A DNA stretch of 64,000 nucleotides from Dickeya oryzae. Its GTDB lineage: Bacteria > Pseudomonadota > Gammaproteobacteria > Enterobacterales > Enterobacteriaceae. The stretch lies in NCBI RefSeq assembly GCF_009372235.1, contig NZ_ML762922.1, positions 263,126-327,125 of the forward strand, written 5' to 3'. The first letter of the stretch is position 1. The number at the start of each line of letters is the position of its first letter. The notes beneath the pieces are model-generated. The model saw only the letters and a program-made list of their open reading frames with translations, made no database searches and was not told the origin of the DNA. This document shows, piece after piece, positions 9,108 to 25,034 of the stretch. Both the position numbers and the translations under genes were made by a program.

Positions 9108-9124
9108 CTTTGTTTTAATTTTAA

Positions 9125-9430: not shown

Positions 9431-9650
9431 TCAGAGGGATGCCCCATGAATACCGAAGAGGTGTAGTAATCCGGCGATTGCCAGAAATAGAAACGCTATA
9501 CAGCCATGGCCAACCGTTGTTTAGGGGTCTATCCGCCCAGTACCATGTTTGGCATTCATGATTGTAGGACCACATCCATTCTGCCGCTGCACGCTGGACC
9601 TTGGAGTAGCCCCATGTACGTCTTGGTGTGCCCTGTGGTCTCACAATCTA
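9430..9650 (-). pseudogene. IS3/IS150-type transposase C-terminal remnant
   Basis: On the minus strand the frames give a transposase tail: AAAEWMWSYNHE in one frame, then in another frame MPNMVLGG, a stop, and TPKQRLAMAV. This matches the typical end of IS3-family OrfB proteins (WxWxYNxxRPNMxLGGxTPxQ). The frame change and internal stop show that it is dead. Upstream parts and terminal repeats are absent, so this is an old fragment marking past insertion in the accessory region. Confidence 0.65.
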
Positions 9651-9763
9651 TCTAAAAGACCATTGCAGCGAGGTGTCCAGCGCCCTCCTGGTGGGAGGTC
9701 AGCGACTGGGTTGCAACTGCCTCCCACACCGATGAACCTGCCATCAGGAGCCAGGAATGCCGG

Positions 9764-10023
9764 TTATCCTCTCGGACCGTTCGGTTTCTTATCGGCGTCC
9801 ACCGCCTTAACAAACATCTTCCAGTCGTGACTTTCTTCGCGGCAGTTGCTGCACGGAGGCAGCTTCTCGCACTCGCGATTGATCACATCCTCGAAGCCGC
9901 AGTTCTGGCACTCGTATATGCCGGGACTGCCTGGCTTGGTGCCTACACGGCGCAGGCGCTCATATTGCTCGGCATGGTCGGTTAGGCGTACTGCACTGCA
10001 TTGGTACTGCTGTAGAAGGCCAT
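9764..10023 (-). pseudogene. Zinc-ribbon protein gene broken by a 5-base tandem duplication
   Basis: The ATG (10021-10023) is preceded by an AAGGAGAA-type ribosome site. It opens MAFYSSTNAV and then stops early. Removing one copy of the tandem GCAGT GCAGT restores one frame: ...NAVRLTDHAEQYERLRRVG, then IYECQNCGFEDVINRECEKLPPCSNC, ending at the TAA at 9764-9766. The two CxxC pairs (CQNC, CSNC) form a zinc ribbon like the YjdM/rubredoxin-like small ICE proteins. The gene is therefore a very recent pseudogene, or phase-variable if the repeat slips. Function of the intact form unknown. Confidence 0.65.
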
Positions 10024-10383
10024 GATCAGTTCTCCTTGGTAATGGCGTCGGTTGTCAGTTTGGAGGCCAGGGTTGGTGAGGCCAGGTTTTTATGGGAGCA
10101 AAATAGGGGGACACAAGGGATAAACACAATATGTTGTGGTTTTTGCTAGTTGGTGAACTACAACGGATAGAAACGCGATGAAAAGTTTGATGGCACTTTA
10201 TTTGTAAGGGTGAAACTCTATTTCCAAGGATGAATCTTTATTTTCATCCCACAACCTCGAGCTCTTCCTGCCAACACATTACCAACAAAACAAGAAGGCG
10301 TGTACATGCCGCCCCCTTAAGAGGGAAATGCGTTTGGGTAAAACACGCGGGATAGTGCAAATTTCACAGATACACCAAACCCT
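10024..10383. other. Gene-free stretch between remnants
   Basis: About 360 bases of mixed composition with no ORF that looks coding. Nothing recognisable as a complete element end was seen. Confidence 0.4.
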
Positions 10384-10548
10384 TCAGGTACTCTGCCAGC
10401 CTTCCTTGAGCTCCAAGCGTCGATGCTCGACCCATTTGAGGAATACAGCCTTGGTGTACTCGTCGGCCAAGCGCACTGCTTGGCACTTATGCTTGCGGTC
10501 GACTTTAAGGTTGATACCTTTGCCCAGACTCACCGAATGATTCGGCAT
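10384..10548 (-). CDS. Small basic protein, 54 residues
   Basis: An ATG-to-TGA ORF starting MPNHSVSLGKGINLKVDRK, continuing with AVRLADEYTKAVFLKWVEHRR. The composition and helical C-terminal half look genuine and the codon use resembles the ICE backbone. It lies just upstream of and divergent from topB. No family is recognised; it could be the intact remainder of a longer gene. Confidence 0.4.
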   Translation of the reverse strand: MPNHSVSLGKGINLKVDRKHKCQAVRLADEYTKAVFLKWVEHRRLELKEGWQST

Positions 10549-10656
10549 ATCAGATTAGAAAATCAAATACGGTAGTTCGCAATCCATATTCTTTATAAGT
10601 TTATATTCTTGATACAGGAATACTCGACGGCATGATTCACATGCCGAGAGAATTCC

Positions 10657-12669
10657 ATGCGGTTATTTCTGTGTGAAAAGCCTTCTCAGGGCAAAGACAT
10701 CGGGCGTGTGCTGGGTACTACTCAGCGAGGCAATGGTTGCCTCACAGGTTCAGGCATCACCGTGACCTGGTGCATTGGCCATCTCGTTGAAGCGGCACCA
10801 CCCGAAACTTATGGTGAGCAGTACAAACGCTGGTCTATCGAACAGTTGCCGATTATCCCCGAGTGCTGGCGTATCGAAGTCAAATCCAAGACCGCCTCGC
10901 AATTCAACGTCGTCAAAGAGCTTCTGAGCAAGGCAACCGGACTGGTCATCGCGACCGATGCGGATCGTGAAGGCGAACTGATCGCCCGCGAGATCATCGA
11001 GCTATGCGGCTATCGCGGCCCTATCCAACGCCTGTGGCTATCAGCGTTGAACGACACGTCGATCCGCAAAGCCCTGTCGGTTCTCAGACCATCTGACGAG
11101 ACGCTACCGATGTACTTCTCGGCACTGGCTCGTTCCCGTGCGGACTGGCTGATCGGCATGAACCTCAGTCGCCTGTTCACCGTGCTGGGACGACAGGCCG
11201 GATACGACGGCGTACTCTCCGTTGGCCGGGTACAAACCCCGACACTGAAACTGGTTGTCGATCGCGACCGAGAAATTGCACGCTTTGTCTCTGTACCGTT
11301 CTGGGCTGTTGAAGTCGTGCTGTCGAGCGCGGGTCAATCTTTCACTGCAGCCTGGCTGCCACCTGATACAGAGACTGATAATGCGGGTCGCTGTCTGCAG
11401 GAACCCATCGCCCGGCAGGCAACCGAACGTATGCGTGTTACTGGCAGCGCACAGGTAACGTCAGTCGAAACAGAACGCATGCGTGAAAGCCCCCCGCTGC
11501 CGTTCGATCTGGGAACGCTGCAAGAGGTCTGTTCGAGGCAACTGGGCTTCGACGTACAGGAAACGCTGGAAATCGCTCAGGCACTGTACGAAACGCACAA
11601 AGCAACAACGTACCCGCGTTCAGACTCCGGCTACCTGCCCGAAAGCATGTTCGCCGAGGTGCCTATTGTATTCGATAGCTTGCTCAAGACCGATCCAGGC
11701 CTGAGGCCGATCGTCGATCTGTTAGACAGAAACCAGCGCTCACGCGCCTGGAACGACAGCAAAGTTACTGCGCACCATGGCATCATTCCCACGCTCGAAC
11801 CCGCTAACCTGGCAGCCATGAGCGATAAGGAGCGGGCAGTTTATACGCTGATCCGTACCCACTACCTGGCGCAGTTTTTGCCACATCATGAATTCGACCA
11901 TACCACTGCATACCTGTCTTGCGCAGGCGAGATGCTGCAGGCGGTCGGCAAGCAAGTAGTCGTAGTCGGCTGGCGACAGGTATTCACCGAGCCTAAGCCT
12001 GACGACGATGGCGATACCACATCACGCAGTCAGGTTCTGCCACCGCTGAACGAAGGATTGTCCTGCCAGATCACTGGCATCAGCTGCAAAGCACTCAAGA
12101 CATCGCCACCACGCCCTTATACCCAGGGTGAACTGGTTAAAGCGATGAAGAGCGTTGCCAAACTGGTCTCAAATCCACGCCTGAAGCAAACGTTGAAAGA
12201 CACCACCGGTATTGGTACTGAGGCGACACGCGCCAATATCATCAAGGGATTGCTTGACCGTGGCTATCTCTTGAAGAAAGGCAGCTCGGTACGCGCTTCC
12301 GATGCCGCCTTCACACTTATCGATGCCGTTCCCGGTGCCATTGCCGACCCCGGCATGACCGCCATATGGGAACAGGCGTTGGATATGATCGAATCAGGCC
12401 AGCTCACACTCGACGTCTTCATCGACAAGCAGTCAGCCTGGATTGCCCAACTGGTACAGCAGTATCGGGGAGCATCCTTATCCATCAAGATGCCACAGGG
12501 GCCCGCATGCCCTGAATGCAGCACGCCCATGCATCAGAGGCCCGGCAAGAACGGAGCGTTCTGGTCTTGCCCGCGCTATCCCGATTGCAGAGGCTCGCTA
12601 CCTTTCGACGGCGGCAAGCGTAAACGCACCACGCCGCGCAAACGTAACAGCAGTCTCCAGGCATCCTGA
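10657..12669 (+). CDS. topB: DNA topoisomerase III (type IA)
   Basis: A 670-residue protein of the usual TopB size. The Toprim domain has Glu7 in LFLCEKPSQ and DADREGE (101-107). The catalytic Tyr is Tyr319 in TTYPRSDSGYLP. The C-terminus carries a four-Cys zinc finger (CPEC...CPRYPDC). Type IA topoisomerases pass single strands and decatenate DNA. ICEs of this class regularly encode their own copy, thought to assist replication or transfer of the element. It has no near-upstream neighbour on the same strand, so it probably has its own promoter in 10550-10650. Confidence 0.95.
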   Translation: MRLFLCEKPSQGKDIGRVLGTTQRGNGCLTGSGITVTWCIGHLVEAAPPETYGEQYKRWSIEQLPIIPECWRIEVKSKTASQFNVVKELLSKATGLVIATDADREGELIAREIIELCGYRGPIQRLWLSALNDTSIRKALSVLRPSDETLPMYFSALARSRADWLIGMNLSRLFTVLGRQAGYDGVLSVGRVQTPTLKLVVDRDREIARFVSVPFWAVEVVLSSAGQSFTAAWLPPDTETDNAGRCLQEPIARQATERMRVTGSAQVTSVETERMRESPPLPFDLGTLQEVCSRQLGFDVQETLEIAQALYETHKATTYPRSDSGYLPESMFAEVPIVFDSLLKTDPGLRPIVDLLDRNQRSRAWNDSKVTAHHGIIPTLEPANLAAMSDKERAVYTLIRTHYLAQFLPHHEFDHTTAYLSCAGEMLQAVGKQVVVVGWRQVFTEPKPDDDGDTTSRSQVLPPLNEGLSCQITGISCKALKTSPPRPYTQGELVKAMKSVAKLVSNPRLKQTLKDTTGIGTEATRANIIKGLLDRGYLLKKGSSVRASDAAFTLIDAVPGAIADPGMTAIWEQALDMIESGQLTLDVFIDKQSAWIAQLVQQYRGASLSIKMPQGPACPECSTPMHQRPGKNGAFWSCPRYPDCRGSLPFDGGKRKRTTPRKRNSSLQAS

Positions 12670-13193
12670 GTCCCCCTACACCTGAAGAGCCCTGTCACGT
12701 CTTCTTGATGACATGCCGCCATCCCGCGTCCGTGCGGGAATCCCGGCGCACCAGCCTTCTACTAAACCGTGCGCACCTCGCTATGCAACGGCAGCGAGGC
12801 AAGAAGGCAACTCGTCCACGGATCGCACCAGACGCGCTCCCCCTTATCCGACATTTCCGCTCTCCATGAAGGGTTTCCTGATGCCTTGCTCTGATGGTCA
12901 GGTCTGAGGAAACCCTTCCGGGGTTGGCGGTATTCGTTGCCGTGCCCAACGGCGAAAAACTGGGCTCCCTTTGTGTGTGGATACATGCCAGAGGATTCCG
13001 GCCACAACCACGATAACGGCCGGGTGCGATTGCTGCGACAGCGAACGGTTTTGACGACAACCGCATCCTGGAACAGCCCATGGGTGGTTTCTTCCTACCG
13101 AGTCGGAGGCCAGCAGGTCCCCGACACTTTTTCTCCTGAGTGACGACACACCGCTCAGGCCTGTAACCCATAACTCAACAAACAGGAGACTTA
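12670..13193. other. Gene-free leader with a long inverted repeat
   Basis: Between topB and the methyltransferase fragment, both strands have long open frames with Arg/Pro-rich shadow-like translations and no convincing start. The notable structure is the perfect 12-base inverted repeat at 12868-12918, listed separately. Confidence 0.5.
12868..12918. repeat. 12-base perfect inverted repeat (hairpin)
   Basis: GAAGGGTTTCCT at 12868-12879 pairs with AGGAAACCCTTC at 12907-12918 across a 27-base loop. It lies about 280 bases upstream of the truncated DNA methyltransferase gene. It may be a long leader hairpin, a protein-binding site or a single-strand origin; no T-run follows. Confidence 0.6.
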
Positions 13194-13445
13194 ATGGACA
13201 CACACCACACATCCCATATGCTGCAATACGGCAGCGTATGCAGCGGCATCGAGGCAGTCAGCCTCGCCTGGGAGCCACTTGGCCTGCAAGCAGCCTGGTT
13301 CTCGGAAGTTGATCCATTTCCGAATGCCGTACTCGCGTATCGCTATCCCCATATCCCCAATCTCGGCGATATAACTCGCATCGCCGACCGTGTACAAAAC
13401 GGTGAAATCACAGCCCCAGACATTCTTGTCGGCGGTACACCTTGT
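13194..13445 (+). pseudogene. Cytosine DNA methyltransferase, N-terminal fragment
   Basis: Eighty-four residues match a C5-cytosine methyltransferase. Motif I is YGSVCSGIEAVSLAWEPLG, then FSEVDPFPNAVL, then the start of motif IV, DILVGGTPC, whose Cys is the catalytic nucleophile. Homology stops exactly there; the frame continues with 36 unrelated residues to 13553. The C-terminal tail of the same kind of protein appears at 18638-18736, so the gene was interrupted and about 250 central residues lost. An ACAGGAG ribosome site precedes the ATG. In intact ICE relatives this enzyme probably protects the incoming element from restriction. Confidence 0.85.
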
Positions 13446-13577
13446 GTCACTAACGATGCGAAAGTGGGTCTTCCGCAACCTGTTAAGGTATCGGAGAAAA
13501 TCGATCAAGTCCGTGGCATAGTCTCTCTGTCGTTCAGGGAGCTGCTGTGCTGACCCTAGGTACAGAAGATGGTATCT
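13446..13577. other. Unidentified junction segment between dcm fragment and IS3
   Basis: About 130 bases unrelated to the methyltransferase and outside the IS. On the minus strand it reads openly (ERQRDYATDLIDFLRYLN and RLRKTHFRIVSDT), which looks like coding sequence of an unknown gene cut at both ends. It is presumably part of the fragment that arrived with the microcin island. Confidence 0.4.
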
Positions 13578-13644
13578 TGATCTTACCCACCATTAGTGGA
13601 CACGCGACTAAGTGAGTAAACTCTCAAGTAAGAGGTGATTACTC

Positions 13645-13944
13645 ATGACAAAACCAGCATCAACCAGCAAAACAGCCCGTAAACAGTACACACCCGAATT
13701 CCGCGATGAAGCCCTGAAACTCGCTGAACACATCGGTGTCGCTGCCGCTGCCCGCGAGCTCAGCCTGTATGAATCCCAGCTCTACAACTGGCGCAGTAAA
13801 CAACAGCAACAGATGACCTCCTCAGAGCGCGAGAATGAACTGGCGGCCGAAAATGCCCGTCTCAAACGCCAACTGGCGGAACAGGCTGAGGAGCTGGCCA
13901 TTCTCCAAAAGGCTGCGACATACTTCGCGAAGCGCCTGAAATGA
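13645..13944 (+). CDS. IS3-family transposase OrfA
   Basis: A 99-residue protein with the OrfA layout: an N-terminal helix-turn-helix ([20 protein letters not shown] then [16 protein letters not shown]) and a C-terminal leucine zipper ([22 protein letters not shown]). It is intact. Its end overlaps orfB, where IS3 elements use a -1 frameshift to make the OrfAB transposase. OrfA alone binds the ends but cannot move the element. Confidence 0.9.
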
Positions 13945-14784
13945 AGTATGTCTTTATTGAAAAGCATCGGGCAGAGTTCAGTATCAAAGCGATGTGTCGG
14001 GTGCTTCGGGTTGCCCGAAGCGGCTGGTATGCCTGGTGTCTGCGTCGTCACCAACTGAGCCACCGGCAACAGTTCCGGCTCGTTTGTGATGATGCTGTTC
14101 GCAACGCATTCGCTGAGGCAAAACAGCGCTATGGTGCACCACGCCTTGCTGATGAGTTGCCGGAGTACAACATCAAAACCATCGCCGCCAGCCTGCGCCG
14201 TCAGGGATTACGGGCAAAAGCCAGCCGAAAATTCAGCCCGGTCAGCTACCGTGAACATGGTCTGCCGGTATCGGAAAACCTGCTGAAGCAGGACTTTATC
14301 GCCAGCGGCCCGAACCAGAAGTGGGTGGGTGACATCACTTACTTACGTACAGATGAGGGCTGGCTGTATCTGGCGGTGGTGATGGACCTGTGGTCTCGTG
14401 CCGTTATTGGCTGGTCGATGTCCGCACGAATGACGGCGAAACTGGCCTGCGATGCGTTACAGATGGCACTCTGGCGGCGTAAACGCCCGAAAAACGTTAT
14501 CGTTCGGCGGGCAGTACTGTTCAACGGATTATCAGGCATTACTGAAGCGGCACAGCCTGCACGGCAGCATGAGCGCAAAAGGTTGTTGCTACGATAATGC
14601 GTGCGCGGAAAGCTTCTTTCATTCACTGAAAGTGGAATGTATCCACGGAGAGCGTTTTAGCGACCGTGAAATTATGCGGACGACGGTATTTAATTATATC
14701 GAGTGTGATTACAATCGGTGGCGTCGTCACAGTGCCTGTGGCGGTCTCAGCCCGGAACAGTTTGAAAACAAAAACCTCGCTTAG
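13941..14784 (+). pseudogene. IS3-family transposase OrfB, frameshifted
   Basis: OrfB reads correctly to KRPKNVIV. It includes [20 protein letters not shown], the first DDE aspartate region, followed by [13 protein letters not shown]. After the Val, about 11 bases are missing near 14504: the expected HTDRGGQYCS becomes RRAVLF in a wrong frame. The rest continues in another frame as [20 protein letters not shown] ... [16 protein letters not shown] ... GLSPEQFEN, ending at 14784. The deletion removes the second catalytic Asp, so this copy cannot transpose on its own. Confidence 0.88.
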
Positions 14785-14814
14785 GGCTGTGTCCACATTA
14801 CGTGGGTAGGATCA

Positions 14815-15503
14815 TCTAGACATGCCAACTGCTCACGACTAACTACAGCAAGGACTTCCTTCCCTACCAGAGACAATCCGTCATGGCATCATACAAGCCA
14901 CTGGAATGTCCCCCGAACGATCAGCCTCTTAAAAGCACAACGTGTTGATCGCCTATCTGATCGACATATCTCAAGTAACCATTCTTCTCTGTATCTTCCG
15001 CAGTGAAACGGCACTACACAGCGCGTATACAAAGTTATGTGTAGCATGCCAAGGCAACTTTATTTTCATCAAGAAATAACTATCCCAACACAAAAGTCCA
15101 TTTAATATAGTGTGGCATTTTTTTCCTCTGTAAAAATCAAACTTCAATAAATTATATACTATGTTTCGATTTTTAACTCCAGGAGCATTGCTCATCTCAA
15201 TCTTATAGAAAAGCTAATGACTCTTAAGGAAAAATGTTTAAAATTATTACAATCGCAATTGCAATAAAGCGACATTATTATCATTTTTTGTTTATTTTCT
15301 TGTTCAAGAATGGTGCAAATTAAATATAAAACCAAGAAAATTAAAAAAACAACACTATCTGTTTACCATTTGAAATATTTTCATAAAAAAAACAAACAAG
15401 CATATTCAGATTTTATTATTGAAAAAAAGAAGAAAAACTCATAAAACGAAAACAGGGCCAAACGATAGTATTCGTTAATAAAATAAAGATTAAGGAGGAT
15501 ATA
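14815..15503. other. AT-rich upstream region of the microcin-like operon
   Basis: About 690 bases, extremely AT-rich from 15070 onward. It must hold the promoter of the downstream peptide gene. Several AT-rich hexamers could be -10 boxes (for example TATAAA near 15325 and TAATAA near 15477), but none can be singled out. No perfect CRP site is seen, although the E. coli mcc promoter is CRP-dependent. The small minus-strand frame at 14971-15195 has no convincing ribosome site. Confidence 0.5.
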
Positions 15504-15527
15504 ATGATTAGCGTATCCAGCAACTAA
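15504..15527 (+). CDS. mccA: MccA-like heptapeptide precursor, MISVSSN
   Basis: ATG ATT AGC GTA TCC AGC AAC TAA encodes seven residues ending in Asn. A near-perfect Shine-Dalgarno (AAGGAGGA at 15492-15499) stands five bases upstream, far stronger than needed for a random ORF. Known microcin C precursors are very short peptides with an obligatory C-terminal Asn, such as E. coli MRTGNAN, and MccB couples AMP to that Asn through a P-N bond. A hairpin and then mccB follow directly, as in E. coli. The product would be a Trojan-horse peptide-nucleotide processed inside target cells to a non-hydrolysable aspartyl-adenylate that blocks aspartyl-tRNA synthetase. Length, position, terminal Asn and ribosome site all agree; production is not shown. 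Confidence 0.88.
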   Translation: MISVSSN

Positions 15528-15541
15528 TTGCATGCCAAATA

Positions 15542-15563
15542 GACGGGGAAGGTCCTCCCCGTC
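15542..15563 (+). terminator. mccA-mccB intergenic hairpin (attenuator-like)
   Basis: GACGGGGA (15542-15549) pairs with TCCCCGTC (15556-15563) around a six-base loop, followed by ATCCTCTTTTATT. It lies between the peptide gene and mccB. In E. coli the corresponding mccA-mccB terminator makes the short mccA message abundant and lets a minority of transcripts continue into mccB; the same logic is inferred here. Confidence 0.82.
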
Positions 15564-15593
15564 ATCCTCTTTTATTAAATGGAAATTTAACAT

Positions 15594-16643
15594 ATGCTTT
15601 ATACTGGCAAATATATTCAAGTCGGGCGTTATAAAAAAGGAGGAGTCTTCGGAGTAGGCTCTAAGCAGATTATCTTTAACGAAAGAATAGACTTTGAAGA
15701 TATCGTCAAAATAGCAAGTTTTTGGAAAACCCCGTCAGACCCAAATAGCTTCGTTGAAAAAGCAAAAAAAAATTTTCCTGAAATGTCGGTTTCAAAAATC
15801 GAGAATTGTATTCAGTTTCTTTTTGATAACAACAGTTTAATGGAAAATAATGACTTCAACAGCAATGACAGGTATAGCCGAAATAGCCTGTATTATAATT
15901 ATATGGGTGCTAATTCAAAAGACGTTCAGGAAAAAATCCAGAATTCTTCTGTCACCCTTATTGGATGTGGAGGGATAGGTAATCATCTATCCTATCTATT
16001 AGCGACATCTGGTATCGGAAAAATAACATTAGTAGACAATGATAAAGTTGAGCTAAGCAACCTCACTCGCCAAGTTCTGTTTACAGAGAAGGATGTTGGA
16101 AATTCGAAGACAGAGGTGTTGAAGCGTGAACTTTTAAAACGAAGAAATGATGTTGCCATAGATATAATTGAATGTACTATCACTTCTGAAGATGACTTAT
16201 ATAAAATACCAAAATCAGACATCTTTATAATTTCCGCCGACCATCCTTTTAGCTTAATGGATTGGGTAAATTCATACTGTGTCGCGCATAATCAACCTTA
16301 TATCAATGTAGGTTATATTAATGACATCTCCGTAGTCGGACCATTTTTTATCCCTGGAGTCACCTCCTGTTTTAAATGTGCAGAAATCACACCAGACTAT
16401 ACGCAAAAGGATAGTTTAAGTGATTATTTAAAAATAATTAATGGTGATTTCAAAGCTGCAACGTTTCCAGGAGTGAATGGCGTGGCGGCTTCGTATGCAT
16501 TTGGCGATATCATCAAGTTTTTAGGTGGCTTTGGTGATATTTTAAGTAAAAATAAAAGAATAGGAATACACTCCTCCATAATTAAAATTGAAGAGCAATT
16601 GATTCCCAAAAATGAGAGGTGCTTCGTATGTTCTCGCCTATGA
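15594..16643 (+). CDS. mccB: MccB-like peptide adenylyltransferase (ThiF/E1 family)
   Basis: A 349-residue protein, almost exactly the length of E. coli MccB (350). The N-terminal peptide-clamp domain is followed by RYSRNSLYYNYMGAN (93-107). The E1-type nucleotide site is GCGGIGNH (124-131), then LVDNDKVELSNLTRQVLF, with the TRQ arginine that binds ATP phosphate. SADHPF (214-219) follows. Zinc ligands are Cys259/Cys262 and Cys343/Cys346. Many blocks match the remembered E. coli MccB sequence closely (LATSGIG, NLTRQVLF, KTEV-KRELLKR, PYIN-GY-NDI). It uses two ATP to convert the terminal Asn of MccA and attach AMP. No strong ribosome site precedes the ATG, consistent with low expression relative to mccA. 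Codon use is strongly AT-rich. Confidence 0.95.
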   Translation: MLYTGKYIQVGRYKKGGVFGVGSKQIIFNERIDFEDIVKIASFWKTPSDPNSFVEKAKKNFPEMSVSKIENCIQFLFDNNSLMENNDFNSNDRYSRNSLYYNYMGANSKDVQEKIQNSSVTLIGCGGIGNHLSYLLATSGIGKITLVDNDKVELSNLTRQVLFTEKDVGNSKTEVLKRELLKRRNDVAIDIIECTITSEDDLYKIPKSDIFIISADHPFSLMDWVNSYCVAHNQPYINVGYINDISVVGPFFIPGVTSCFKCAEITPDYTQKDSLSDYLKIINGDFKAATFPGVNGVAASYAFGDIIKFLGGFGDILSKNKRIGIHSSIIKIEEQLIPKNERCFVCSRL

Positions 16644-17839
16644 AAAAACTCATTCTATTCAATGTATTATTTAATTCATTCAGAATGCTCATAGGAGCAA
16701 CGTCTGCTATCTATCTATTAAATCACGGACTTAGCTTGATCGATCTTGCATTCATGAAGACTATGCAATCCGTGATATTTTTTATGCTTGATATTCCTTC
16801 ATCATATTTAGCCGATAAAATCAGCCGCAAGTACATGTTAGTTTTATCGGTTATTTTTGGTGGGTTATGGCTGATTATAACAGGAATAGCCGAAAGTAAA
16901 GCCATATTTTATTTAGCCGAAGTATTCAACTCTTTCTCGTTAAGTATATTTGGTGGAGTCTATTTTTCATATCTCATAGATAATACTCAGGATAATGAAA
17001 AAGAAGAAATTCATAAAATCCTTGGAAAAAGCAACAAGTACCAGTATTTATTTATGGCTTTTAGTGCACTCTTAGGCTCCTATCTTTCTTCATACAATGA
17101 CAGACTGGTATGGATTCTAGCTGGCTCCGGATGCCTACTGATTGTCATGACTCTGACATGGTCCTTACCTAAACCGGTAGTGAAGAAAAGACTTGAGAAA
17201 TCCTCTATTTTGGGAGACTTGAAAAAAATCTATGATATTATCAATGACAACTCATCCTCCCTTCACCTTATATTTATTGCCTTAGCGGCCAATATGGTCT
17301 ATTTCCAGATAATCTTACAATATTGGCAGCCTTTCGTTAGTGATAGTTTGAAATTCTATTCCCCAAACGATACCTTTTATGGTTTTTTATTTCTTTTCAT
17401 ATTAATTGCGCAATCAATTTCAGGTTGGATCAGTTCCAACGTAAAAAGCAATGCAAAGCTTTATTTTTATAGCATGATGTTGTTATGGCTCTCCAATATA
17501 ATCTGCTTAGTAGGATTATTGCAATATAACCTTCTTATTCCTGTTTCATTAGTTATTATGTTCGGTGCAAACCAAACACTAACTATGTCTCTCAGAGCAC
17601 ATTACCACTCTCTGATTTCATCTGAACTGAGATCAACATTTGACTCACTGCTATCTTCGCTATCTAAATTAGTTATTTTGGTTTTAATGCCAGGAGTCGT
17701 ACTGCTGACTCAACGATACGGATGGCTGTGTTTAACTTCTGTTTTAGTCGGTTTAACTGTTTTCGCCTCTATCTCATCGTTGCTTATGAAATTAGGAAAG
17801 AGGAACTCATCTATCGTGATCCCAGAGGAGGGCATGTAA
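16628..17839 (+). CDS. mccC: MccC-like MFS exporter
   Basis: A 403-residue membrane protein with about twelve hydrophobic segments, the size of E. coli MccC. The start at 16628 is chosen because GAGGTG (16616-16621) sits six bases upstream; an ATG at 16640 overlapping the mccB stop is the alternative. The Major Facilitator loop motif is seen as YLADKISRKYMLVLS between the second and third segments. It overlaps mccB by 16 bases and ends where the methyltransferase begins. In the E. coli system MccC exports the peptide-nucleotide and gives partial self-immunity; the same is inferred here. Confidence 0.9.
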   Translation: MFSPMKKLILFNVLFNSFRMLIGATSAIYLLNHGLSLIDLAFMKTMQSVIFFMLDIPSSYLADKISRKYMLVLSVIFGGLWLIITGIAESKAIFYLAEVFNSFSLSIFGGVYFSYLIDNTQDNEKEEIHKILGKSNKYQYLFMAFSALLGSYLSSYNDRLVWILAGSGCLLIVMTLTWSLPKPVVKKRLEKSSILGDLKKIYDIINDNSSSLHLIFIALAANMVYFQIILQYWQPFVSDSLKFYSPNDTFYGFLFLFILIAQSISGWISSNVKSNAKLYFYSMMLLWLSNIICLVGLLQYNLLIPVSLVIMFGANQTLTMSLRAHYHSLISSELRSTFDSLLSSLSKLVILVLMPGVVLLTQRYGWLCLTSVLVGLTVFASISSLLMKLGKRNSSIVIPEEGM

Positions 17840-18598
17840 ATGGATTATTTAAAAAAACAATTTAAAATCTTCAAAGAAAATATTAAAAACGGATATTCAA
17901 TAGATGATTTTGCAGCTGTGAAAGTTTATGCACAAAAGCTATTTTGTGAAAAAATATCCACAATGAATAATAATAGCTACCTTGAGGTCGGTTGTGGCGG
18001 CTCACTCTCCGTTCATTATTTAAGCAAACATGATAATGTCATATCTTATGGATTGGATTACGATGACATGGCTATTGAGTACTCGCAATTTCTTAAGAAA
18101 CAGTTAAATTCAAATGCTGTAATTTTAAAAGGAAATGCGTTCTCACTCCCCTTTGACGACAACAGCATAGATTGCGTTTTTTCTATTGGAATGATAGAGC
18201 ATTACGGTAAAGAAGAACAGTTAAAGATTTTGACAGAAATGGCACGAGTCGCAAAGAAAAACCTGATTATGGGAATTCCAAATTATAAGGAAAGCAGTGC
18301 TTCTTATCATATTATTAAACACGGTGATGAAGAACATCTTGATTGCGATCTGGAAGAGCTGGCTAATGCTTTACCTAGTAAAAAAATCTTCTTTGATGGA
18401 CGAGGACTGTTCATGGCCAAAAGGGATGTGGACAAAAATGAAAAGTATAAAGAATTTATTATTAATGCCTACCCAAATCTTTATAAAGATGTATTTCTTT
18501 CACACGATATTGAAGATTTGATTGCACATGAAAGAACAGCGCCACCTGAAACACGACGAAAGCATGGATTTATTGAGTATTTTGTTGCCACTATATAA
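17840..18598 (+). CDS. Stand-alone SAM-dependent methyltransferase of the microcin operon
   Basis: A 252-residue class I methyltransferase. Motif I is EVGCGGS (49-55), the acidic loop is YGLDYDD (70-76), post-II is KGNAFSLPFDDNSIDCVFS, and then MIEHYG. It starts on the base after the mccC stop with GAGGAGGG seven bases upstream, so it is the fourth gene of the operon. It lacks the extra N-terminal enzyme domain of E. coli MccD and any MccE acetyltransferase or decarboxylase, and does not look like the two-domain MccS carboxymethyl enzymes. It could methylate or carboxymethylate the peptide or nucleotide, or act as an immunity enzyme. The exact substrate is unknown. Confidence 0.85.
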   Translation: MDYLKKQFKIFKENIKNGYSIDDFAAVKVYAQKLFCEKISTMNNNSYLEVGCGGSLSVHYLSKHDNVISYGLDYDDMAIEYSQFLKKQLNSNAVILKGNAFSLPFDDNSIDCVFSIGMIEHYGKEEQLKILTEMARVAKKNLIMGIPNYKESSASYHIIKHGDEEHLDCDLEELANALPSKKIFFDGRGLFMAKRDVDKNEKYKEFIINAYPNLYKDVFLSHDIEDLIAHERTAPPETRRKHGFIEYFVATI

Positions 18599-18637
18599 AA
18601 ACCAAGAAGATATACTATTTATCTGTAAAATATAAAC

Positions 18638-18736
18638 ACGCCTCGCTACAAAGCCATCGGCAATTCCATGGCCGTACCATGCGTGGCGTGGCTGGGTCAA
18701 CGTCTGCTCCAGGCATTACAACCGTCCAAGTTATAG
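18638..18736 (+). pseudogene. Cytosine DNA methyltransferase, C-terminal fragment
   Basis: Reads TPRYKAIGNSMAVP then CVAWLGQRLLQALQPSKL and a TAG. The RYKAIGNSMAVP block is the conserved motif X end of C5-cytosine methyltransferases, and this frame has no start. It is the missing tail of the fragment at 13194-13445, showing that the segment 13446-18637 was put in place of the central part of that gene. Confidence 0.85.
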
Positions 18737-19118
18737 AACAGAGTTGTGTGTCGTTCGATAGCAGCAATACTCACAGGAGGTATGTGTTCTTACCAGCACC
18801 GCGTTGTATTACTTCTCTACGAGGATTTTGATCTCCCCACACATCCTCTCTACGAGGGGATTTGTCTACCGTAATCAGTGCCAATATGGGCGCAACCTGA
18901 TGCGTTTTGTTCCACGCACGCGGGCCATCATCACGCCATTCTGAATATATGTTCGCTGGCGTAGCTGGCAACATCCCAGGCAGTCAAGGCCATCAAGACT
19001 GCGGCACGCTGATAGCGTGTTGGCTTTCGCTATCACAGGGCGCTTAGCGTCCATTCGTTCCACCCACAAGGGCCCCCATCCCTTGAGGCTGGGGAGTTCC
19101 TTTTTTGGAGACTTTCCC
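18737..19118. other. Gene-free leader before the next ICE gene
   Basis: Contains a short imperfect direct repeat (TCTCTACGAGG near 18815 and again near 18846). A G/C-rich stem, CCC...GGG around CATCCCTTGAGGCTGGGG, lies upstream of the ATG at 19119. No ORF is supported. Confidence 0.45.
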
Positions 19119-19916
19119 ATGGATCATCAAACCATTCGCAATCAGATGCAGTCATTGGTGCGTGACCACGTTCCATCTAATGCCCGCAGCTTCAAATTCA
19201 ACATTTTCGACGGACAGCCCAAAGTGTCTACACTGGGCTTTCACATTGATCCCAAACCTTTTGAGGGAAAAATCATCGCCAGGACGGAGGATGCCATTGT
19301 CGTCAAGACCGGCCGAATCGAGTTCGCCGTGCTTGACCGGACTCTTGTGACCGAAGATCCGGACGAAGGTGCCAAGGTACACGTAGAGCCCTATGCGCGG
19401 CACCGCTTCGACGGCCTTCGTGCAGACACACCCGAAGAGCGCACCGAATACACCGCCGATGGCACGCCCTACAAGCTCAAGACATATATTCTCGGCTCTG
19501 CCCCCGCCAGGCTTCCGATCCCACAACCTCGCTGCCCAGAGTTACAGGAACTTATCAGGCAACTGGAGGAGCTACCGGCCCCCGATGGCTTCCGTCGTAT
19601 TACACACCTGTTGGTTGATGCCGGTGCGCGGGATTTCACCTGGGTCGATCCGCTGCCCCAGGACATCATCGCCACACCACCGGCGATCAGCTTCAACACA
19701 AGCACAGCGAAATTCGATGGCCGTGTCACCGTGCAATACGAGCGCGCCGACGACCTCTATGCCGTGGTGCTGCGTCACGATGGAGAGTTGGTCGAACGGG
19801 TTGACGGTGTGTTCTTCGATAGCCTCGGGGAGGTACTACTCAGGCTGATCGATGATGGAAGCTGGCGTCGCATACGTGTGTGCACCATTCAAAAGCCGCT
19901 ACGGCGTAAGTCATGA
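19119..19916 (+). CDS. Conserved ICE protein of unknown function
   Basis: A 265-residue soluble protein starting MDHQTIRNQMQSLV at an ATG preceded by TTTTGGAGAC. The middle shows VKTGRIEFAVLDRTLV and YTADGTPYKLKTYILG. The codon use is backbone-like. It is the first gene of the accessory block conserved between topB and pilL in relatives of this element. No catalytic motif or named domain is recognised. Confidence 0.75.
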   Translation: MDHQTIRNQMQSLVRDHVPSNARSFKFNIFDGQPKVSTLGFHIDPKPFEGKIIARTEDAIVVKTGRIEFAVLDRTLVTEDPDEGAKVHVEPYARHRFDGLRADTPEERTEYTADGTPYKLKTYILGSAPARLPIPQPRCPELQELIRQLEELPAPDGFRRITHLLVDAGARDFTWVDPLPQDIIATPPAISFNTSTAKFDGRVTVQYERADDLYAVVLRHDGELVERVDGVFFDSLGEVLLRLIDDGSWRRIRVCTIQKPLRRKS

Positions 19917-20064
19917 CGCTGCAGAAACAACCCGTCTACACGCCGGGTTAGCTGACAAACATCGTTTATTTACCGCGCCGCTACTGGGGCGCGCGTCAAT
20001 GCCTCGTCGCCAGACAACGGTTCTTCACCGTATTGCCCGGCATACCATTATCTCAGGAGTACCT

Positions 20065-20430
20065 ATGACTTTACGCTTCAAAGGAGCCGAATTGCGGCCC
20101 GTCATCGCCGAAGCTGTTGCCAATCAGTGCCGCATCATTCTGGTCAAGGATCAGGGTGTTTATTGGCTCGCCGAGCATGGTGAGCGCCATCCCGATGGGC
20201 GTCAAAAGCTGATCGCCTACGCGGTTGGCTGCAACCCGGACATTGACCCCTTTGACGACTGGTGGGAGCGTTCACACGCTGAGTTCGGTGGTGATGATTT
20301 TGGCGAATTTTTCGAGCCCCGCGACAGGGTGTTTACCCGCATCCTGGATGGTGCAGGCGATCTCCACGTGTCCGCTACCGCAACACAGATTTTCCTGCAA
20401 GTTGTGGCGATACCCCCCGATAGTAACTGA
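20065..20430 (+). CDS. DUF3085 family protein
   Basis: A 121-residue protein with CAGGAG upstream of the ATG. It starts LRFKGAELRPVIAEAV, then ILVKDQGVYWLAEHGER and a Cys-Asn-Pro block (GCNPDIDPFDDWWE) typical of the DUF3085 family found in ICEs and plasmids. A clear terminator follows at 20445-20463, so it is probably the last gene of its unit. Function unknown. Confidence 0.8.
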   Translation: MTLRFKGAELRPVIAEAVANQCRIILVKDQGVYWLAEHGERHPDGRQKLIAYAVGCNPDIDPFDDWWERSHAEFGGDDFGEFFEPRDRVFTRILDGAGDLHVSATATQIFLQVVAIPPDSN

Positions 20431-20444
20431 CCTTCGCCCCCCGT

Positions 20445-20463
20445 AGCCCCCTTGATGGGGGCT
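20445..20463 (+). terminator. Rho-independent terminator after the DUF3085 gene
   Basis: AGCCCCC (20445-20451) pairs with GGGGGCT (20457-20463) with loop TTGAT, followed by TCTTTCCCC. Fifteen bases after the stop codon. Confidence 0.8.
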
Positions 20464-20935
20464 TCTTTCCCCTCGCGCCAGACTCTCCGCCACTGATGCG
20501 TATCAGCCTGCAGCCGACCACTACGGACCATTCAGCCAGCTATATCCTGAAAACATTTGTATGCGCGGCCCATTCAAGATCAACTCCCCGACCTGCACCA
20601 ATGTTTCCGGTACGACAGCCTTTTCCTGAATAAATGGCACACGAAAATAGGGAACGGCTTCAGTTCACGTTTCTCATCGCACTTGCATTGCGGGCGCAGG
20701 CAGTCTGTCTGCATGTTTTGCTGACGTTGTCAGCGACATGCCACGCAACCCCGGCCCCAGGTTGCGGTGCGGCGAAAACCGCATGGCCAAGCCAGTTCGC
20801 ACAGCATCCTCACGCGAACGACCACCGGCTTATACCGGTAGTGGATGCCTCTGCCTTATCAACCCATCGCGGGGTTACACACCCCCGCAATCGGGCCTGG
20901 TGTGTCTCCGCTTCATTTTTAATGGAGATGTCATC
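20464..20935. promoter_or_regulatory. Hairpin-rich leader of the STY4534-family gene
   Basis: About 470 bases without a supported gene. Successive inverted repeats are CTGAC/GTCAG (20721-20733), GCAACC/GGTTGC (20745-20765), ACCGG/CCGGT (20824-20839) and GCGGGG/CCCCGC (20869-20888). The last lies about 50 bases before the ATG at 20936. The series resembles a structured RNA leader or a protein-loaded recognition region and recurs in simpler form before several neighbouring genes. Confidence 0.5.
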
Positions 20936-21829
20936 ATGGTTCATTCTACTTCAGGCGAAAAAGCCTATTTCGATCTGCACACCGAAGGTTACGGTCGTCT
21001 GCAGCGAGTGCGGGAAGTTCCCGTACGTGGCGGCCGCCGTGCCCAGCCCTTCCTGGCTTGCACCATCGCCGCGCTGGTTGGCTCTGCCAAAGAGCCGGTC
21101 ATCCGCTATTTTGATGTCAAAGTCTCGGGTGCCGAGGCTAAAAAACTGGTCGAACACTATATCGGTACGAATAATCCGCAGCAGTGCCCGGTGGTCAAGT
21201 TCCGGCTGGGGGATCTGTGGAGTGATGCATTCATCCGTCCCGGTGGTGAGCGCAAGGGTGAACCCGCAGCCAGCCTCAAAGGTAGACTTCTGAAGGCTGA
21301 ATTGATTGACCCCGCCACACTGGCGGCAATCGAACAGTACGAACTTATCACCCGAGGCATTGGTTATCTCAATCGCCCCATAGACGTCACACCGAAGGAG
21401 GGTGACCCGTTCCTCACATGCACCATCGGTGCACTAGCCGGGCCTGTTGAAGAACCGGAATACCGATACATCAACACCATCGTGACCGCTCCGGAAGCTC
21501 AGCATCTGGTGCGCCGTTGTGTGCAAGCCGTCGAGGCCCAGCGCAAGGTGTTGATCGCCTTCCGTCTCAATGACATGAAAGCGAACCCATACCTTCGCAA
21601 GAAGGGCGAGCATGCCGGCGAACCGGCAGCGAGTCTGGAGTCCAGGCTAATACATATTGGCCAGATTAAGATAGATGGACAACGAGTCTATCCAACGGCC
21701 AACCAGGCCTCCTCAGAATCAGAAAGTCCTGACAACAGCGCAGATATGCCGCCTACAACATCGGGTACACACGAGCCTGAAGCGCAATTTTCAGCAGAAG
21801 AAGAGTCCGCTCTCGCAACCTCACGCTAA
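20936..21829 (+). CDS. STY4534-family ICE replication-associated protein (DUF3577)
   Basis: A 297-residue protein with AATGGAG upstream. It contains an internal duplication. Residues about 37-75 (QPFLACTIAALVGSAKEP, VIRYFDVKVSGAEAKKLV) resemble residues about 156-195 (DPFLTCTIGALAGPVEEP, EYRYINTIVTAPEAQHLV), and each is followed by a FRLxD and an EPAASL block. The C-terminal 45 residues are acidic and low-complexity. This two-repeat layout is that of the STY4534/DUF3577 family near the replication block of SPI-7-like elements. Biochemical role unknown. Confidence 0.85.
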   Translation: MVHSTSGEKAYFDLHTEGYGRLQRVREVPVRGGRRAQPFLACTIAALVGSAKEPVIRYFDVKVSGAEAKKLVEHYIGTNNPQQCPVVKFRLGDLWSDAFIRPGGERKGEPAASLKGRLLKAELIDPATLAAIEQYELITRGIGYLNRPIDVTPKEGDPFLTCTIGALAGPVEEPEYRYINTIVTAPEAQHLVRRCVQAVEAQRKVLIAFRLNDMKANPYLRKKGEHAGEPAASLESRLIHIGQIKIDGQRVYPTANQASSESESPDNSADMPPTTSGTHEPEAQFSAEEESALATSR

Positions 21830-21911
21830 GCCGATCAGCAAGACCTCACATTGGGGTCTTGTCTCTTTTTCCAGGTCTATCGCCAGTAAAACGCATCTAA
21901 GGAGATTCAGC

Positions 21912-22574
21912 ATGGCTACAGCAGCCGTTCAATCCTATCCCCCTATCATCGTTCGCGGCCAGCTCACGATCCGCACTATCTTTGGTCGTAACGGCCGGTT
22001 CACCGTCGGTCGTCTCATCACCCACCTTGGGTTGTTCCATGTCAAAGATCCAGAACTGGAGCAGTATCCCGAAGGGAAGTATGAAGGTGAATTTGCGATT
22101 CGATACATTTATCCGAAGGCCTATCCGGTCGGCGACGGCATGCGATTCGAGATCCGCGCCAGCCTGAACGGCATGACGTTGTCCGGCATCGACAAACTCA
22201 GCAAAGCAGAGGCTCGCGCTTTCGCCACACAGGATGTCGATCCGCTTGATGAGGAACCGGGCACCCAGCCAACACCCGTGCCCAAATCCAAGGCCAGGCC
22301 TGCCTCTGTGCAAGCATCCAGGGATCCGTTGGTCGACACCACACCATTCGGTGTCGATGCGCCCTCCACCGCCGTGACGGCCTCGGGCAGTCCCGATAGC
22401 GACGACACTGCGTTATTCGGCATCCTCTGGCCCCTGGGAGAGTCAGTGAAACTGGACTCGACCATCGACCGCCGCACACTGCGCTTGCAGATAGCGCGGC
22501 TCAGTCAGTTGGACTATGCGTTCGACGCCACAGCCCAACAGTGGAATCGTCAGTCTGAATCTCTGACAACCTGA
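21912..22574 (+). CDS. DUF3275 family protein
   Basis: A 220-residue protein; AAGGAG lies upstream of the ATG at 21912. The conserved N-terminal domain reads IIVRGQLTIRTIFGRNGRF and LITHLGLFHVKDPELEQY, followed by EGEFAIRYIYPKAYPVG, as in DUF3275. A Pro/Ser/Thr-rich linker (about 115-165) joins it to a short C-terminal helical domain (FGILWPLGESVKLD). Always found with the STY4534 family in this ICE class. Function unknown. Confidence 0.85.
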   Translation: MATAAVQSYPPIIVRGQLTIRTIFGRNGRFTVGRLITHLGLFHVKDPELEQYPEGKYEGEFAIRYIYPKAYPVGDGMRFEIRASLNGMTLSGIDKLSKAEARAFATQDVDPLDEEPGTQPTPVPKSKARPASVQASRDPLVDTTPFGVDAPSTAVTASGSPDSDDTALFGILWPLGESVKLDSTIDRRTLRLQIARLSQLDYAFDATAQQWNRQSESLTT

Positions 22575-22608
22575 TTCCTCCTGCCACCGCTGTGGCATTT
22601 TTCCCACC

Positions 22609-22644
22609 TACCGGGGCTCCGCCTCTTTGGGGAGGACTCCGGTT
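22609..22644 (+). promoter_or_regulatory. Leader hairpin before a small ICE gene
   Basis: ACCGG and CCGGT arms enclose an inner CCTC/GAGG pairing in the 90-base gap after the DUF3275 gene, ending some 20 bases before the ATG at 22665. Confidence 0.4.
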
Positions 22645-22664
22645 TCTTTCTGGAGAATTCCATC

Positions 22665-23009
22665 ATGTTCACGAGTGATAACACGACATCCTCATGCGTC
22701 AACGGGGATCCCTGCGCCGCCCTCAATGAGCAAACCTGGCAGCGTGTCTGCAAGACAGCAGCCAAAGATGCCAGTAAGGGCTGCGGGCTGTCTTACGACC
22801 ATTACATTGCTCTCTTCAGCTCGTCGATTGATCGGCACGTTGATCAACTGCCCGAACACCAGCGCGCACAGGCTCTGGCAATAGCACGGGAATGGAATTA
22901 TGCAACACCCGTCGAAAGGCAGGAGAACCAGGACTGGAATGCTGAAAACGGCTATTGCAGACACGGTCTTGATCCGAATTGCTGTCCGGCTGGTTGCGGC
23001 GAGTATTGA
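22665..23009 (+). CDS. Small Cys-rich conserved ICE protein
   Basis: A 114-residue protein beginning MFTSDNTTSSCVNGDPC with TTCTGGAGAA upstream. The last 20 residues carry a Cys/His cluster (YCRHGLDPNCCPAGCGEY) that could bind a metal. The central part is helical (QALAIAREWNYATP). Backbone-like codon use and placement among conserved ICE genes support it as real; function unknown. Confidence 0.7.
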   Translation: MFTSDNTTSSCVNGDPCAALNEQTWQRVCKTAAKDASKGCGLSYDHYIALFSSSIDRHVDQLPEHQRAQALAIAREWNYATPVERQENQDWNAENGYCRHGLDPNCCPAGCGEY

Positions 23010-23071
23010 ACGCCAACAACGGCTCCCTCCGCCACTTGAACGCTGAACAGCTCACGCGCTTTCATCCCCTT

Positions 23072-23118
23072 GGGGCAACACTGCCCCGCAGGCAGCGTTG
23101 CCCCTCAACGTTATTGAG
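23072..23118 (+). promoter_or_regulatory. Strong double hairpin just upstream of a start codon
   Basis: GGGGCAACACTGCC (23072-23085) pairs with GGCAGCGTTGCCCC (23091-23104), with one mismatch. CTCAA/TTGAG (23104-23118) forms a second stem. The start codon at 23128 lies ten bases beyond, so the structure could control translation or end upstream transcription. Confidence 0.65.
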
Positions 23119-23127
23119 GACACCACC

Positions 23128-23772
23128 ATGCCTGAATCTTCATTACAGCAACCGTTGTTCCGTATCGACGAATGCACTGATCTGATGGTCGATGCCTGCG
23201 TCTGTAGCGAGAATGGCGACCTGGTCTTTGTCTCAATCTGGGCACGGGATACCGCCGTCCAGCAATTTATCGCCCGACTCACACTAGGCCACGATGAAGA
23301 TGGATTGAACCAGTTTCATCTCGTCACAGAACACGGCGGCTCCGTGCCAGTATTCATCCCTTCGGTCGAGCGACTTGAAAAACGCCTGACCCGCAACTAT
23401 CGCCGCACGCTGTTTGGATCGATAACCAACCTGTGGCTGTTCGACCAGCGTTGCATCTGCCCTGACAAGAGCACGGCCAGCGCATTTGCGCTACTGCCAC
23501 GCTCTGCTACACCTACTGTTCGCTTGTGGCAACTCGTCAAAGACACGTGCCCGCTGCCACTGCTCGACCACTGGCAAACGCCGATGCTGGCGTTGCTACA
23601 CAGCCGCAACATGCTCCATAAGCTGCCGGTCGCCCTCGGGCCGTTGCAGGGCTTTCACCTCGGTCTGGATGTGCCTGCGCTCACCGACGCGCTGGGCGAG
23701 CTTATCCGTAACGGCGTTCTCACCGCCTATCCATCTCCGTCACCGGTCTGGATACCACAAGCAGTGGCCTGA
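23128..23772 (+). CDS. Conserved ICE protein of unknown function
   Basis: A 214-residue protein, MPESSLQQPLFRIDEC..., in the block that accompanies DUF3275 and DUF6094 genes. The sequence contains a helical middle (PTVRLWQLVKDTCPLPLLDHW) and a C-terminal segment that looks like a short winged helix (PALTDALGELIRNGVLTAYP). No catalytic signature is visible. It is preceded by the strong double hairpin at 23072-23118. Confidence 0.7.
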   Translation: MPESSLQQPLFRIDECTDLMVDACVCSENGDLVFVSIWARDTAVQQFIARLTLGHDEDGLNQFHLVTEHGGSVPVFIPSVERLEKRLTRNYRRTLFGSITNLWLFDQRCICPDKSTASAFALLPRSATPTVRLWQLVKDTCPLPLLDHWQTPMLALLHSRNMLHKLPVALGPLQGFHLGLDVPALTDALGELIRNGVLTAYPSPSPVWIPQAVA

Positions 23773-23841
23773 TCGTGCCACGGCAGACGCACCTTATCAG
23801 GCACCTGTACGTTTTTCATCACCGTCAGACAGGAGATTCCT

Positions 23842-24951: not shown

Positions 24952-25034
24952 TCCCCGCAAGGGGAAGCAGCACCACCCACACACTGCTGGCCACTGAACC
25001 CGAGTTCAACGCCAGTCAATTTCACTCACCCATC

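Follow-up and report, generated by a model that had tools for sequence, protein, structure and literature searches.

Precursors of the microcin C-like family are mostly heptapeptides with a fixed Asn, and this terminal Asn is the residue used as substrate by MccB. In the E. coli microcin C7/C51 operon (mccABCDEF; plasmid MccC7-H22, NC_010257) a Shine-Dalgarno-led heptapeptide gene ending in Asn is followed by a hairpin, MccB, an MFS exporter and a SAM-dependent enzyme. The same elements in the same order were found in a 64,000 bp stretch of Dickeya oryzae DNA (contig NZ_ML762922.1, positions 263,126 to 327,125), referred to here as the window. The precursor is MISVSSN in the window and MRTGNAN in E. 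coli, the two MccB proteins are 47-48% identical, and mccE and mccF were not found near the operon (window positions 9001-25000). Photorhabdus mccABC operons are also alike, with MISxxSN precursors, MccB identities of 59-61% (L032, L033 and L034) and MFS identities of 47-50%. They differ in being without a relative of the methyltransferase, and Photorhabdus bodei has a GNAT gene instead. The carboxymethyl-cytidylate microcins of Yersinia pseudotuberculosis and Bacillus amyloliquefaciens share the terminal Asn and a ThiF-type MccB but, as described in PMC9239234 and PMC12250964, have a long precursor and a bifunctional MccB plus MccS, compared to 7 residues and a 349-aa MccB here.

Operon organization
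With this operon the known microcin C-like family gains a further member. It is very probably a microcin C-type operon, composed of mccA (encoding MISVSSN), mccB and genes for an MFS protein and a methyltransferase. From its sequence it is predicted to produce and export a heptapeptide-nucleotide, which would enter related bacteria and block aspartyl-tRNA synthetase (AspRS). The features are as follows.

14876..18630, no strand assigned: whole mcc module, common to the window and a chromosomal copy in another species of the genus (genome G394)
14876..15503, plus strand: AT-rich leader region, part of the module and conserved with G394
15492..15498, plus strand: Shine-Dalgarno AAGGAGG, with the mccA ATG five bases downstream
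15504..15527, plus strand: mccA, seven-codon precursor gene (MISVSSN), from ORF scans; identical in G394
15542..15563, plus strand: GC hairpin with T-rich tail, terminator/attenuator-like, between mccA and mccB, from folding
15594..16643, plus strand: mccB, ThiF-type peptide nucleotidyltransferase, 349 aa (PF00899; PDB match)
16628..17839, plus strand: mccC-like MFS exporter (PF07690, E=1.2e-13), overlapping mccB by 16 nt
17840..18598, plus strand: class I SAM-dependent methyltransferase belonging to a rare family (PF08241), abutting the MFS stop

The original prediction of a compact operon of short ORF, hairpin, MccB, MFS exporter and methyltransferase was borne out, each element being present at its position, and its microcin C-like identity was upheld by the MccB match, the conserved MIS..SN ORF and the gene order. 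The excellent ribosome site claimed for the Asn-ending ORF was found as AAGGAGG.

The mccA codons are ATG ATT AGC GTA TCC AGC AAC TAA. MISVSSN thus has the features of a precursor of the 7-residue microcin C-like clade: a short ORF with a strong Shine-Dalgarno, Met first and Asn last, beside mccB. Both strands of the window were scanned for short ORFs (ATG start, 4-24 codons) preceded by any of four Shine-Dalgarno motifs. Eight were found, of which MISVSSN was the sole 7-codon ORF. A 7-codon ORF ending in Asn arose in 2 of 20,000 Markov sequences modelling 718 bp upstream. A search of MccB neighbourhoods for MISVSSN or variants had been proposed, and 18 of 29 MccB loci had, at most 400 bp upstream of mccB, a 7-codon ORF with terminal Asn behind a Shine-Dalgarno sequence, with a motif set looser than in the window scan and loci that are not mutually independent. 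The precursor scan gave no qualifying 7-codon ORF at the other 11 loci. As a positive control the same scan recovered MRTGNAN at the E. coli locus. The background rate of such ORFs was 1 in 728,086 bases and, set against 18 of 29 loci, this argues that the MISVSSN ORF is not due to chance.

In the predicted pathway fMISVSSN would be translated repeatedly from the strong Shine-Dalgarno site, and the hairpin would hold mccA mRNA above the level of mccB mRNA. MccB would act on the terminal Asn, forming an isoAsn phosphoramidate whose nucleotide is most likely AMP. This product may be decorated by the methyltransferase, which would take the place of E. coli MccD and most likely act on the phosphoramidate. 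The MFS protein would export the peptide-nucleotide, and a stand-alone MccF-like peptidase encoded elsewhere in the genome may clear product that leaks back.

Relatives and genomic setting
BLASTn of the window against G394 gave homology at 14876-18630. The 3.75-kb module aligned over 3756 columns with 91.6% identity. The 44-nt run at 15489-15532, spanning the Shine-Dalgarno, was without difference, while the non-coding leader was 82-88% identical per 100-base bin. Photorhabdus precursors encoded before mccB were MISIASN, MISSGSN, MISMTSN and MISIVSN. Residues 1-3 and 6-7 (MIS and SN) are constant across Photorhabdus and the window, and residues 4-5 are variable. Close homologues of the locus therefore retained both the short ORF and the Asn at its end, as the original prediction demanded, in the form of an identical mccA in G394 and MIS..SN heptapeptides in Photorhabdus. 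The MIS..SN peptide group, including MISVSSN, appears to be new, and some of these heptapeptides may already stand in published MccA/MccB data sets. One such data set, behind a tree of 71 MccB sequences, is in Table S1 of PMC6495379. Several Photorhabdus mccB copies were broken or partial, suggesting that the mcc system is dispensable in Photorhabdus.

A first scan of the genome contigs confirmed no relative, and plasmids and E. coli genomes gave no match at the DNA level. A scan of viral sequences gave 15 loci, of which L058 alone covered most of MccB, and no relative of the methyltransferase.

The surroundings of the module are a PFGI-1/SPI-7-type integrative conjugative element (ICE), with TraD (TIGR03754), a TraC/VirB4-type ATPase (TIGR03744), a MobH relaxase (NF041494/TIGR03760) and the ICE ParB (TIGR03764), all above the profile cut-offs. 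The description of the operon as ICE cargo thus holds for this genome but not as a fixed property of the module, which is chromosomal in G394. The leader presumably contains the mcc promoter. A sigma-70 promoter scan of the leader gave a match count not above that of shuffles and picked out no promoter. Expression driven by an insertion sequence (IS) is unlikely because the 600 bp upstream of mccA belong to the module itself. A repeat scan gave no terminal inverted repeats for the IS.

Exporter and methyltransferase
The start of the MFS gene is most likely ATG 16628, although the mechanical ORF list has it at GTG 16619. As in the 7-residue clade, an export gene lies in the operon (PF07690 MFS gene, predicted exporter). 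Its product is 47-50% identical to the MFS proteins encoded downstream of mccB in six Photorhabdus loci, and significant similarity to E. coli MccC was confined to 63 residues (38%).

The methyltransferase family adjoins MccB in the four organisms where the neighbourhood could be seen. Two of 14 close database relatives came from the same organism and an equally long contig as an MccB. Among the 27 MccB loci L032-L058 the gene was present in L056 (G394) only, the flank of L057 being too short to tell. Purifying selection was shown, as judged from codon substitutions, for mccB, the MFS gene and the methyltransferase gene: dN/dS between the window species and G394 was 0.10, 0.10 and 0.15, respectively.

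By alignment the methyltransferase is no evident MccD. Orthology to MccD was unsupported by pairwise identity (24% over 104 aa), though the tree, in which the methyltransferase formed its own supported clade, allows a grouping with MccD (p-AU 0.31). An AlphaFold2 model built from 26 sequences had a pLDDT of 96; a 5-sequence run (pLDDT 49) was set aside. Foldseek ranked LahSB, a RiPP C-terminal methyltransferase, top and MccD (5fcd_B) 43rd. A second fold comparison put UbiG at the top, tied with many others, and LahSB at 26th place. As modelled, the fold matches class I methyltransferases in an unspecific way and leaves the reaction unfixed. A methyltransferase attached to a microcin C-type operon without MccE beside it appears to be new. 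It is tentatively proposed, at somewhat short of an even chance, that this dedicated family gives a decoration new to the microcin C class. It could alkylate the phosphoramidate or cap the aspartate-like carboxylate, one step replacing MccD and MccE, and so protect the warhead against resistance hydrolases of the HIT type or against the AspRS of the producer.

Immunity
Immunity by acetylation is known from MccE2. The methyltransferase could itself be a self-immunity factor within the same core pathway, methylating the processed aspartamide-nucleotide at its free amine or beta-carboxylate and preventing AspRS binding. The top Foldseek match to LahSB is consistent with this role. So is the lack of a tblastn match to E. 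coli MccE or MccF (E <= 1e-6) in window positions 9001-25000. With the same threshold, MccE searched against the 27 loci, L073 and this part of the window matched Pantoea and Brenneria loci only; the MccE next to mccB of E. coli-type aminopropylated microcin C was thus not seen here. The slot after mccC is also variable, with a GNAT acetyltransferase in P. bodei and no same-strand ORF of at least 100 aa in Photorhabdus heterorhabditis. The window's genome had three weak matches only (23-30%) to a GNAT of the P. bodei type. Against an immunity role, the gene occupies the mccD slot of E. coli, the fold matches are unspecific, and a chromosomal MccF-like gene is predicted to offer immunity already. 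The immunity role is judged rather unlikely, and a tailoring step by the methyltransferase is preferred.

The MccF-like gene stands alone in the chromosome of the same genome, away from the operon, and its product is 59% identical to E. coli MccF. Of 9 genomes in the genus, 7 carry it at full length. The protein conserves Ser118, Glu243, His311 and Trp186 (E. coli numbering), residues with a functional role in E. coli MccF. In contrast, four Photorhabdus genomes searched (G138, G361, G761 and G762) gave no MccF-like match. PMC9239234 puts forward the idea that minimal mcc operons depend on immunity enzymes encoded elsewhere, 'not explicitly checked' there; the window's genome fits this idea, and the four Photorhabdus genomes show no such gene. 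A second, resistant AspRS was also considered as an immunity factor and none was found among the four tRNA-synt_2 proteins of the genome. Their open frames were 600, 530, 481 and 359 aa, which we take from size to be AspRS, LysRS, AsnRS and EpmA, respectively.

MccB and the nucleotide
MccB had been predicted to be of canonical length with canonical motifs. It proved to be full length, with E. coli MccB 3h5n as the nearest PDB entry (E=1.9e-104, 353 bits, residues 4-347). In 39 aligned MccB-like proteins GCGGIG, NLTRQ and Cys259/262/343 were invariant and Cys346 nearly so. The PDB alignment, which takes in the N-terminal region, together with PF00899 and the cysteines, is that of an MccB of the 7-residue clade. 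The MccB tree puts the window in one group, at SH-aLRT 82, together with G394, P0002, Rouxiella and two rows from Photorhabdus, and leaves P0004, a third row from that genus, unplaced.

That cytidylate rather than adenylate is attached is improbable. Peptide-cytidine members exist and E. coli MccB can use several NTPs in vitro (PMC12250964), but the members described there and in PMC9239234 combine a long precursor with an MccB that carries a carboxymethyltransferase domain at its C-terminus. The present precursor is 7 residues long, MccB has a length of 349 aa and the ThiF match ends at residue 337. Adenylate is preferred.

Thr3 of MRTGNAN is called critical for MccB in a review (PMC12250964). 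The MIS..SN precursors carry Ser at this position. MIA, MDH and MRF precursors are without a hydroxyl there, so the Thr3 requirement is not a general rule.

Intergenic hairpin
The hairpin, GACGGGGA-AGGTCC-TCCCCGTC followed by the T-rich tail, lies between mccA and mccB as in the 7-residue clade. Its energy in the window was only moderately unusual, with 7 of 200 shuffles folding equally well over 76 nt (z -2.26), and 17 of 200 doing so when 60 nt were folded (z -1.39). A z below -2 was found in 10 of 18 loci. Relatives have hairpins at the same position with differing sequences. The short ORF and hairpin look like an attenuator, and a termination mechanism raising mccA over the biosynthetic transcripts is described for E. 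coli (PMC6495379), but a regulatory leader peptide attenuating mccB, with the true MccB substrate elsewhere, was rejected as highly improbable since the terminal Asn is the MccB substrate residue, MIS and SN are held while residues 4-5 vary, and the E. coli locus with its proven MRTGNAN shows the same layout.

Uptake and potential applications
Because gene callers readily overlook seven-codon genes, new precursors are usually discovered by manual inspection. With the MIS..SN group, a ready set of uptake sequences can be compared on one warhead. MISVSSN is without a charged side chain, unlike MRTGNAN with its Arg, and this difference could influence the choice of importer. The original prediction also held that the target spectrum may differ. 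The methyltransferase adds a candidate new tailoring or immunity step. New MccA/MccB pairs serve as orthogonal protein-thioesterification tags, according to PMC13255007. A YejA homologue was present in all nine genomes of the genus (62-65% identity). The TAA noted in each YejA row was the end of an open frame at the two loci checked.

Operon organization

The original prediction had placed a tightly spaced microcin C-like operon within the window. All of its coordinates were exact on re-reading.

Features of the operon and its flanks
13194 to about 13449 (ORF 13194-13553): C5 cytosine DNA methylase remnant, N-terminal part (PF00145, ORF residues 14-85)
13645-14784: transposase ORFs (Pfam), presumably of IS3 type
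14876-18630: mcc module, which together with the transposase ORFs lies between the two C5 DNA methylase gene remnants
15504-15527: mccA, seven-codon ORF (MISVSSN) with AAGGAGG five bases before it
15542-15563: GC hairpin with a T-rich tail, between mccA and mccB
15594-16643: mccB, ThiF-type protein of 349 amino acids
ATG at 16628: start of the MFS gene, overlapping mccB by 16 nt
17840-18598: SAM-dependent methyltransferase gene, with no gap after the MFS gene
18635-18736: second C5 methylase remnant of 33 codons (...YKAIGNSMAVP...), past the mcc module

The operon has a G+C content of 35% compared to 52% for the window. Between the window and G394, another species of the genus, dN/dS was 0.096 (mccB), 0.097 (MFS gene) and 0.150 (methyltransferase gene); these low values indicate that all three have been kept.

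MccB

The closest PDB match of the window MccB was E. coli MccB 3h5n (residues 4-347, E=1.9e-104); the E1 enzymes, the family that came next, were far behind (E=1.7e-24). It was 47-48% identical to E. coli MccB from plasmids. Its motifs are canonical, as had been claimed: GCGGIG, NLTRQ and cysteines 259, 262 and 343 were invariant in 39 aligned MccB-like proteins and cysteine 346 was nearly so. The nearest database relatives outside its own cluster were P0002 (88%) and proteins of Rouxiella silvae (75%) and Photorhabdus (59-60%). Among the other genomes sampled, 4 of 391 in the family and 1 of 393 in the order (39% identity) had relatives at E <= 1e-40. Two of nine genomes of the genus carried mccB, including G000, the genome containing the window.

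The precursor gene

Judged by comparison across loci, the seven-codon mccA is a real precursor gene. It was identical in G394. Together with its Shine-Dalgarno site, the ORF falls within a 44-nt run without a single difference; identity over the non-coding leader is 82-88%. This run is no proof by itself, because eleven further identical runs in the module were at least 44 nt long, all of them coding or ending just past a stop. In Photorhabdus, MIS..SN peptides are encoded before mccB: MISIASN in P. heterorhabditis and P. khanii, MISSGSN in P. bodei, MISMTSN in P. tasmaniensis and MISIVSN in P. asymbiotica. The codons of their first three residues differ synonymously. Farther loci encoded MIAAVRN and MIAMAHN (Moraxella), MDHSMNN (Pantoea, Brenneria), MDHxxxN (Bartonella) and MRFTANN (Bordetella).

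Under a fixed rule (a Shine-Dalgarno-led 7-codon ORF with a final Asn, <=400 bp upstream of mccB), 18 of 29 MccB loci were positive compared to one such ORF in 728,086 background bases; the window and the E. coli locus used as positive control are among the 18, several of which are close kin. Among the 11 misses, L041 and L042 contain heptapeptides without a recognized Shine-Dalgarno site, and L044, L046, L048, L051 and L054 are from Bartonella. In L047, L049, L052 and L053 mccB was matched only in part, so the scanned 400 bp did not start at the gene. In the Moraxella caprae locus L036, one mccB is preceded by two copies of the MIAMAHN ORF (4398 and 4662), both with AAGGAG. L058, a contig in a viral collection, encodes MLGKTRN, an MccB (43%) and an MFS protein in this order; of the two stops inside the sequence taken as mccB, one may simply be where the gene ends.

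Hairpins unrelated in sequence followed mccA in most loci examined, including E. coli, and were weakest in L036 and L055. The energy of the window hairpin was moderately unusual: out of 200 shuffles each, 7 folded as well over 76 nt and 17 over 60 nt. Ten of 18 loci had a z below -2. A termination mechanism that lifts mccA above the biosynthetic transcripts in E. coli is described in the available part of PMC6495379.

In the literature searched, no paper turned up for MISVSSN or six related peptides, or for MccB, peptide-nucleotide and Photorhabdus combined; a broader search listed four. The operon is a fresh example of an already described microcin C-like type, since the portions available of two papers report that most MccA precursors have 7 residues with conserved Met and Asn (PMC6495379) and that minimal operons of three genes are known (PMC9239234).

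The methyltransferase

The methyltransferase has a predicted class I SAM-methyltransferase fold (AlphaFold2, 26 sequences, pLDDT 96). Its gene occupies the slot of mccD in the E. coli operon, but by sequence it is not evidently an MccD: identity to E. coli MccD was 24% over 104 residues, whereas MccD of Pantoea and Brenneria is 59-60% identical and accompanied by MccE. It formed one clade with 13 database relatives (SH-aLRT 99), and a grouping with MccD was not rejected (p-AU 0.31). An alignment search, which scored only the 7,997 candidates with the most shared words, gave 14 proteins at E <= 3e-45, its own cluster counted, and the next match at 1e-16.

Among the organisms with this methyltransferase, it could be placed with MccB in four: that of the window, G394, Rouxiella silvae (P0003 and P0123, contigs of 214,332 bases) and Marinomonas agarivorans (P0010 and P0128, contigs of 16,209 bases), the last two being paired by organism and equal contig size. 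The gene that fills the mccD slot here is thus rare: of 27 scanned MccB loci only L056, from G394, had it, and searches gave nothing at E <= 1e-25 in the class sample (368 other genomes) or at E <= 1e-12 among 72,556 plasmid records.

The enzyme would alkylate the phosphoramidate. The main rival is that it would cap the amine or carboxylate as immunity. Alkylation of the phosphoramidate is preferred because aminopropylation of the phosphate in E. coli raised toxicity about two-fold (available part of PMC6495379) and blocks HIT hydrolases (available part of PMC7157772).

Immunity and uptake

Searches with E. coli MccD, MccE and MccF (tblastn, E <= 1e-6) gave nothing in window positions 9001-25000 or in L073, the G394 module locus. 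The S66 peptidase family had one match in G000, a stand-alone MccF-like gene at G000:C1:583707-584696 (L077, L088) whose product shares 59% identity with E. coli MccF. MccF structures were its first PDB matches (E=6.5e-131), with murein carboxypeptidases far behind (6.6e-23). Ser118, Glu243, His311 and Trp186, which we take to be residues with roles in MccF, are kept. The gene is not tied to the operon, being full length in seven of nine genomes of the genus (G208 and G282 matched at the C-terminal end only). Four Photorhabdus genomes searched had no MccF-like match. YejA homologues were present in all nine genomes of the genus. Judged by size, one of the genome's four class II synthetases is AspRS.

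In P. bodei (L034) a GNAT acetyltransferase gene (PF13302, 7199-7750) follows the MFS gene and is possibly an MccE2-like immunity gene. The mccB of this locus was not a single open frame.

Mobile surroundings

The operon had been described as ICE cargo. This holds in the window, where the surroundings are a PFGI-1/SPI-7-type ICE, but not in G394, where the module sits between tex and a BioH-like gene. Stretches matching these two genes lie 88 bp apart on another contig of G000, so either the module was transferred between the ICE and the chromosome or the two acquired it independently. Next to the window module, the 18635-18736 piece alone had no Pfam match; its YKAIGNSMAVP is presumably the last motif of the C5 DNA methylase family.

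A repeat of about 120 bp adjoins the chromosomal module of G394 (L073:11669-11788). Three copies at 93-94% identity occur elsewhere in genome G392, and it looks like a dispersed miniature element. Farther downstream than the module, the ICE contains two radC RNA motifs (RF01754; 18938-19092 and 20702-20848), both of which exceed the gathering score.
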